Assembly: GCF_002944405.1 (NCBI RefSeq)
Contig: NZ_CP024307.1
Span: 2,500,501-2,564,500, forward strand
Length of the DNA stretch: 64,000 nt
Direction: 5' to 3'
Source: Sinorhizobium fredii
Lineage (GTDB): Bacteria > Pseudomonadota > Alphaproteobacteria > Rhizobiales > Rhizobiaceae
The notes beneath the pieces are model-generated. The model did no database searches and had not been told where the DNA came from. It worked only from the letters and a program-made list of their open reading frames with translations. A program made the translations under genes and the position numbers. The first letter of the stretch is position 1, and each line of letters starts with the position of its first letter. Positions 50,764-51,019 of this stretch are shown here, in pieces.

Positions 50764-51019
50764 GTTCTCAGGGCGGGGTGAAATTCCCCACCGGCGGTAG
50801 CGATCGGCGGACCAGCGGTCTGATGATCGAAGCCCGCGAGCGCTTCAGGCAATGCAGCTCCGCGCGTCCATGGACGCGCAAAGGTCGCTGTAGCACTTTG
50901 AGTTGCTGCATGATTCTGTCCTTAAATCGATCTCGATTTAAGGAACTGTGCAGTGTCTGAAGGTCAGCAGATCCGGTCAGATTCCGGAGCCGACGGTCAC
51001 AGTCCGGATGGAAGAGAGC
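50764..51019 (+). promoter_or_regulatory. FMN riboswitch (RFN element) with a repeat inserted in its variable stem
   Basis: The conserved FMN-aptamer blocks are all present: GGGCGGGGTGAAATTCCCC with ACCGGCGGTA, then AGCCCGCGAGCG, then GATTCCGGAGCCGACGGT and AGTCCGGATGGAAGAGAG. P1 pairs 50764-50769 with 51014-51019. Between AGCCCGCGAGCG and CAGATCCGGTCAG, a 9-bp stem (50843-50851 with 50954-50962) carries a 102-nt insert. Downstream, AACCC/GGGTT at 51030-51045 could be the expression platform. It should lower ribH2 expression when FMN is high. Confidence 0.93.
50852..50953 (+). repeat. Two-hairpin intergenic repeat, copy C (RIME-like), inside the FMN riboswitch
   Basis: It has inner hairpin GCGCGTCC/GGACGCGC, the link GCACTTTGAGTTGCTGCAT, and CCTTAAATCG/CGATTTAAGG within a TGCAG-ended outer stem. 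It lies exactly in the loop of the riboswitch variable stem, so the aptamer core is not broken. Confidence 0.85.

Follow-up and report, generated by a model that had tools for sequence, protein, structure and literature searches.

A RIME-type palindromic repeat in the P4 loop of an FMN riboswitch upstream of ribH2 in Sinorhizobium fredii

Riboswitch families differ greatly in their optional peripheral stems, the origin of which is seldom known. The variable stem of the FMN riboswitch, P4, tolerates changes in length, and P3 is the other variable hairpin of this RNA. In 23S rRNA, the intervening sequences of helix 9 sit at the tip of the helix. Rhizobium-specific intergenic mosaic elements (RIMEs), as Osteras et al. 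reportedly described them in 1995, are about 105 bp long, contain two palindromes, and occur in many intergenic copies in Sinorhizobium. RIMEs have been annotated in S. meliloti, and two papers report an FMN riboswitch upstream of ribH2 in that species (PMC2245857, PMC2573895). In the pneumococcal trp operon, a BOX element lies between two upstream T-box riboswitches (PMC3049150). Here, we describe a RIME-type repeat in the aptamer domain of the FMN riboswitch preceding ribH2 in a 64,000-nt stretch of the S. fredii genome (NZ_CP024307.1, positions 2,500,501 to 2,564,500), referred to below as the window, whose numbering is used throughout (Table 1).

Table 1. Features of the ribH2 leader and copies of the repeat in the window
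Feature	Position	Strand	Basis
FMN riboswitch aptamer (RF00050), P1 to P6	50760..51023	+	91.1 bits, whole model
Distal P4 stem, 5′ arm, CTTCAGGCA	50843..50851	+	Sequence; 9-bp stem pair probability 0.97
RIME-type insert in P4 loop, 102 nt	50852..50953	+	Repeat-model match 50851-50956, 98.3 bits; missing in BR816 and S. americanum
Insert hairpin 1, inner stem GCGCGTCC/GGACGCGC	50852..50893	+	Sequence, model structure, fold
Insert hairpin 2, perfect 12-nt arms 50919-50930 and 50933-50944	50906..50953	+	Sequence, fold
Distal P4 stem, 3′ arm, TGTCTGAAG	50954..50962	+	Sequence
Leader from aptamer to start codon, presumed expression platform	51024..51111	+	Position only; RIME hairpin 1 in the corresponding stretch of genome G015
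ribH2-type lumazine synthase, 157 aa	51112..51585	+	ORF; NF009084 246 bits, cut-off 160
Second repeat copy, hairpin 2 differing	25045..25152	+	97.3 bits
Third repeat copy	37799..37906	-	124.4 bits

The P4 insert and its empty site in relatives

The aptamer matches all positions (1–138) of the Rfam model, for which the cut-off is 66.2 bits, and is followed after 88 nt by the lumazine synthase gene, a riboflavin-synthesis gene as expected downstream of RF00050. The distal part of P4 is a 9-bp helix with one G·U pair, and a pattern parse gives P4 a total length of 127 nt. The tip of this helix is occupied by the insert, which matches a covariance model of the repeat with an E value of 5e-24. The original prediction, made from the letters of the window, had placed a mobile-type repeat with two hairpins of its own in the variable-stem loop of an otherwise intact aptamer, at the tip of this 9-bp stem, and had named further copies at 25046-25148 and 37801-37905. 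All of these features were recovered: both hairpins are seen in the sequence, the model structure, and the fold, and the model finds the two further copies with the borders given in Table 1. Elsewhere in the window, a bacterial class A RNase P RNA occupies 10151-10548 on the minus strand (301 bits).

The covariance model was built from 27 sequences, which include all three window copies as well as riboswitch copies or their neighbours from four relatives (L049, L093, L094), so that the scores of the window copies and of those relatives are partly circular. An independent DNA search of the genome with the 37801 copy alone as query gave at least 44 matches (40 of 128 candidates scored). The model itself gave at least 131, among which the low-scoring ones include opposite-strand echoes of palindromes; at least 95 score 60 bits or more (150 of 2824 candidates scored). 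The consensus consists of two hairpins and a joining spacer, starting with CTACAGCG and ending with ATGCAGTAG; it begins with CTAC and ends with GTAG, the GTAG at one end being a feature shared with GTAG-REPs. The window copy diverges at its 5′ end, where ATGCAGCT stands in place of CTACAGCG, and its own end reads GTGT after CA, not GTAG. We take the insert to be a RIME, an assignment made by anatomy and not by letter-by-letter comparison with the published consensus. Its 102 nt and two hairpins agree with the size and architecture reportedly described for RIMEs, its 60-bit matches are dispersed in a rhizobial genome, and the ribH2 locus is filled in two genomes of the genus (the window genome, G000, and G008) and empty in Ensifer sp. 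BR816 and S. americanum.

Several copies have surroundings of note. The copy at 25045 begins 91 nt after a match to the Atu_C9 sRNA (24771-24953) and departs from the consensus in its second hairpin, which has a different type of sequence (TTTCCGAAAATCC...). The copy at 37799-37906 (window 37770-37925) follows just after a reading frame ending in TGA near 37776 and is flanked by CGGAACGGCC and GGCCAGTTCCG, which place it at the tip of another hairpin, perhaps a terminator stem. At L199 (G000:C1:2352736-2353443), inverted repeats of 10 bp, GACCGGCCGC / GCGGCCGGTC, enclose the copy, which has the best stem score among the 92 copies analysed in this way.

Across 33 genomes of the genus, we found 48 FMN elements above the cut-off, 32 before ribH2 and 16 elsewhere, the latter measuring 147–148 nt each. 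P4 exceeds 50 nt in 5 of the 32 ribH2-linked elements and measures 26–33 nt in 26. A long P4 is missing in 27 of the 32 leaders, one of them (L043), mis-parsed by the pattern, being judged by total length: its element, at 169 nt overall, is too short for a full insert. A near-complete repeat occupies P4 in 2 of the 32, the window genome and G008, with hairpin 2 shortened in G008. Hairpin 1 alone is present in S. psoraleae G017 (22.6 bits) and in G028 (22.7 bits; repeat model, E 0.0014), and the P4 of G027 carries a doubtful RIME tail, equalled by 7 of 1000 shuffles. At the site of the insert, BR816 (G021) and S. americanum (G002), the latter the sister of the window genome in a two-gene tree, have CAGGCGAGCCGYCTG with a 5-nt loop; their RF00050 scores are 103.9 and 102.0 bits, compared with 91.1 bits for the window genome. 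Because these two close relatives have a 5-nt loop and 27 of 32 genus leaders are without a long P4, the comparison identifies the P4 repeat as an insertion. An insertion had been proposed at the outset, with the proviso that most relatives should not share the same stem sequence devoid of likeness to the other repeat copies; the relatives have a short loop, and comparison of the locus in related strains found it empty in BR816 and S. americanum and filled in G008.

The two filled P4 loops may descend from one insertion or from separate ones. G000 and G008 belong to one clade (91/86), within which G000 pairs with S. americanum, whose site is empty. Their right insert junctions agree, the left ones nearly so, and the copies share 6 derived letters, ranking 5th and 3rd of 62; the copies are not mutual best matches (rank 13 of 92), and the G000 leader is nearest the empty BR816 around the promoter and P3 (96%). 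We count one to three entries into P4 in Sinorhizobium; a single old entry followed by many losses inside Sinorhizobium is possible. The locus as a whole (49582-51585) is a mosaic, with G000 nearest S. americanum in the ATPase gene and nearest BR816 in the promoter and P3 region, which suggests local recombination.

Repeats in other riboswitch RNAs

The repeat was also sought at 80 named ribH2 loci, where Ensifer oleiphilus HO-A22 and isolate AFS045263 (L093, L094) carry a full copy in P3 beside a normal P4. These two copies have 11 derived letters in common (rank 1 of 62) and clearly go back to one insertion. In a sample of the family, an FMN element above the cut-off was detected in 234 of 394 genomes, with lengths taken from the elements listed (the second element of G079 is missing among these). 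Outside the genus, at least 11 FMN elements reach 180 nt or more among the matches listed, and all eleven sequences were examined. RIME hairpin 1 lies in P3 in four genomes of genus g71, in varied states of decay: the model gives 49 bits in G102 and 15 bits in G184, and the P3 loops of G245 and G376 give no match to the repeat model at E 0.1 but align with the consensus more closely than all of 1000 shuffles. In three further genomes of g71 (G298, G340, G404), the FMN elements among the matches listed measure 149–166 nt. P3 in two genomes of genus g73 (G104, G246) contains a second hairpin of the type seen in the copy at window 25045, and in P4 of G284 (g41) covariance scoring finds an element with the architecture of a RIME (29.4 bits, E 1e-5). 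Finally, in G015 RIME hairpin 1 occupies the tip of the presumed expression-platform hairpin, which lies between the aptamer and the start codon of ribH2 (49 bits; L036 2188-2332), a position from which it could affect control more directly than the P4 copy.

Not every long FMN element holds a RIME. The inserts of G041, G144, and G411 in P3 and of G200 in P4 have no convincing RIME likeness, and 273 of 1000 shuffles equal the RIME likeness of the 33-nt P4 of G031. The shuffles keep dinucleotides but not palindromes, so these likeness tests somewhat favour any hairpin. The inserts of G041 and G144 (genus g10; L180, L185) and of G200 (g96; L256) may be other repeats. Six genomes of genus g96 (G127, G259, G312, G352, G388, G416) have adjoining pairs of weak FMN-like matches at 33–53 bits, below the cut-off, as if the FMN element were tandem or altered. 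RIMEs also lie next to FMN riboswitches: between the ATPase gene and the riboswitch, S. fredii USDA 205 (G006, L035 2270-2377) has one of 132 bits in the opposite orientation, and G029 (L029 1778-2088) has two matches of 123 and 106 bits.

Three further RNA families, TPP, speF, and cobalamin, were listed in the 33 genus genomes. None of the 94 TPP elements above the cut-off (103–117 nt) or of the 32 speF elements (154–157 nt) has room for a RIME. Among the cobalamin matches listed, 24 measure 263–278 nt. The cobalamin element of G016, at 372 nt, groups with this set by sequence, its extra length being made up by a full RIME (67.7 bits) located where the Rfam model allows a free insert, between positions 151 and 152. 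In the two-gene tree, G016 lies next to the clade formed by G017 and G028 (87/97), and the cobalamin elements of the latter two genomes (303 and 304 nt) have an extra piece at the same insert point. No shuffle out of 1000 matched hairpin 1 of the G016 copy as well as these pieces do; their likeness to the RIME consensus is weak, being equalled by 10 and 11 of 1000 shuffles. At the level of sequence, relatives of G016 keep remnants of the RIME in their cobalamin riboswitch. The cobalamin insert of G018 (310 nt) is doubtful, with 4 of 1000 shuffles as good against the G016 copy and 273 of 1000 against the consensus, and the two elements examined among those of 395–401 nt (G019, G011) contain no RIME.

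The original prediction was thus right about the P4 insertion and missed that it is not unique, P3, P4, a platform hairpin, and the cobalamin riboswitch having also been entered elsewhere. Its further suggestions, a change in the speed of folding or an added processing site, stand as hypotheses. We read the sequences as recording at least five entries of RIMEs into riboswitch RNAs, counting P3 in Ensifer, P3 in g71, P3 in g73, the platform hairpin of G015, the cobalamin riboswitch of the G016 group, and P4 in Sinorhizobium, with P4 in g41 less surely a further one. The g71 and g73 entries are held separate because the genus labels and the repeat halves differ. Orientable copies in riboswitch RNAs have hairpin 1 first in the transcript, a regularity that was noticed post hoc and in a material where eroded palindromes are hard to orient.

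Predicted folding, function, and choice of site

We computed partition-function folds of the natural aptamers of 14 leaders. The pair probabilities of P1, P2, P3, P5, and P6 in the window leader equal those in BR816 to within 0.01; the core, which had been expected to fold despite the insert, should thus take the fold predicted for relatives with the empty site. The probability that an insert base pairs beyond the insert is 0.2–1.0% (two runs with slightly different borders), whereas 100 dinucleotide shuffles of the insert average 18.9%. The 9-bp P4 stem has a mean probability of 0.16 with shuffled inserts, 3 of 100 being as good as the real one. A reversed insert is almost as good, with 1.6% outside pairing and a P4 stem probability of 0.83. 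Counting against this reading, the natural insert gives P3 and P5 probabilities of 0.36 and 0.41, below the means of 0.45 and 0.55 obtained when the insert is shuffled. Random inserts are therefore harmless to P3 and P5 in the folding calculation, and the real repeat is favoured by P4 and insulation only, not by the whole core. The G008 leader, which also has the insert, falls below the window leader in P5 (0.13) and P6 (0.08), and the G102 leader has a lower P4 (0.27) and more outside pairing (5.7%) than the window leader. P3, P5, and P6 are rated low even without an insert, with values of 0.06–0.54 across the 14 leaders, an effect probably due to the absence of tertiary contacts from the model. 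Overall, the calculation predicts that the insert is an insulated folding module.

The explanation that we consider probable is that a non-autonomous RIME-type palindromic repeat inserted in the apical loop of P4 and was kept because it folds on itself. RIMEs would land nearly at random over intergenic DNA, selection would remove insertions that break an aptamer or a platform, and insertions at the tips of P3, P4, or similar loops would survive, because the repeat would close into its own hairpins and leave the stem below paired. A copy could later erode, often to a single hairpin, and then resemble an accessory stem; the decay series in the P3 loops of g71 counts in favour of such erosion. 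The same-way orientation of the copies counts against near-random landing followed by survival. FMN binding and ribH2 control would be nearly unchanged, and the effect of the insert is most likely small. Downstream of the insert, the 3′ half of the aptamer and the platform match BR816 and S. americanum at 97–99%, so that the time from the finished aptamer to the regulatory decision would be unchanged.

The insert might instead have a function, its long stems being cut by RNase III or another nuclease to yield a two-piece leader that the aptamer would hold together, or an altered lifetime of the ribH2 mRNA, and be selected for this. We regard this as unlikely. Both hairpins keep most of their pairs (31 of 34 model pairs), but the pairing of six embedded copies falls within the scatter of 91 free ones (z 0.2 to 1.2), and RIME-derived hairpins persist in related species, but 27 of 32 relatives do without the insert. 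S. meliloti RNase III is described as double-strand specific and active in 23S rRNA maturation (PMC6121014), and Correia elements in mRNA are described as substrates of RNase III (PMC10969869); RNase III processing of the insert is possible. Extra selection on embedded copies was considered and rejected, all six lying slightly above the trend of the 91 free copies and inside its scatter.

An active preference of RIMEs for hairpin tips, mediated for example by a single-strand transposase acting on extruded hairpins, would mean that P4 was chosen and not merely tolerated; we hold this to be quite unlikely. The flanks of 92 copies in the window genome were compared with swapped flanks by a stem-forming (tip) score. 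At scores of 20 or more there are 5 of 92 copies compared with 1.2 expected, slightly more than near-random landing accounts for, but at 16 there are 6 compared with 5.3, and mean flank pairing is close to that of swapped flanks (-10.1 versus -9.5 kcal/mol). The 37799 copy, between CGGAAC-GGCC and GGCC-AGTTCCG, fits such a preference, and the test is conservative because the P4 copy itself scores only 15, the end of the model taking up stem bases. Nevertheless, at gathering thresholds the P4 copy is the only one of the 92 that falls within an Rfam RNA, and the TPP and speF elements are without inserts. General hairpin targeting by RIMEs was rejected, since the excess over swapped flanks is small and limited to the highest scores.

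That the extra stem is native and ancestral to the riboswitch, and repeat-like by appearance alone, has hardly any probability: the off-consensus 5′ end of the window copy and the derived letters common to G000 and G008 would fit it, but the match to the repeat model over both hairpins and the spacer, the short loops and empty sites of close relatives, and the copies elsewhere in the ribH2 leader in other lineages largely refute it.

Relation to described elements

With the P4 repeat read as a tolerated, self-folding insertion, the origin of several peripheral stems becomes directly readable, as a mobile repeat that is near-intact, halved, or almost erased, in two riboswitch classes. This suggests that riboswitches can gain new side-stems from wandering repeats. 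A broader reading, speculative and rather unlikely in our view, is that RIMEs are a standing source of peripheral riboswitch stems in the Rhizobiaceae, entering aptamer and platform loops mostly in one orientation and wearing down to persisting single hairpins, some of which would now be working parts, such as RNase III sites that make a two-piece FMN riboswitch. Because leaders occur naturally both with the insert and in the empty form, it can be tested directly how an aptamer copes with 100 additional bases and whether inserts gain function.

The insert shares with RIMEs, as reportedly described by Osteras et al. in 1995, a length near 105 bp, the two palindromes, and the many intergenic copies in Sinorhizobium; it differs in that RIMEs are reportedly intergenic, whereas one copy lies here within an aptamer domain. 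Compared with other FMN riboswitches, the conserved core is complete and ribH2 lies downstream as in S. meliloti, but P4 has 127 nt where 26 of the 32 ribH2 elements of the genus have 26–33 nt. GTAG-REPs, associated with RAYTs, are similarly palindromic, presumed non-autonomous, and marked by GTAG at one end of the consensus, according to PMC3733652, in the main text of which the term RIME has no occurrence. The alphaproteobacterial intervening sequences in helix 9 of 23S rRNA are likewise additions inside a helical part of a structured RNA, a likeness of position and not of compared sequences; they are processed by RNase III (PMC6121014), whereas cutting of the window insert is hypothetical. 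In the literature searched, which left most subscription journals outside its reach and is thus no proof of novelty, no mobile repeat was described within the aptamer of a riboswitch. The nearest published case that we found is the BOX element of the pneumococcal T-box leader, also a small folded repeat in the leader of a riboswitch, for which a largely independent fold is assumed there (PMC3049150); the BOX element separates two riboswitches, whereas the RIME of the window lies inside the loop of one aptamer.
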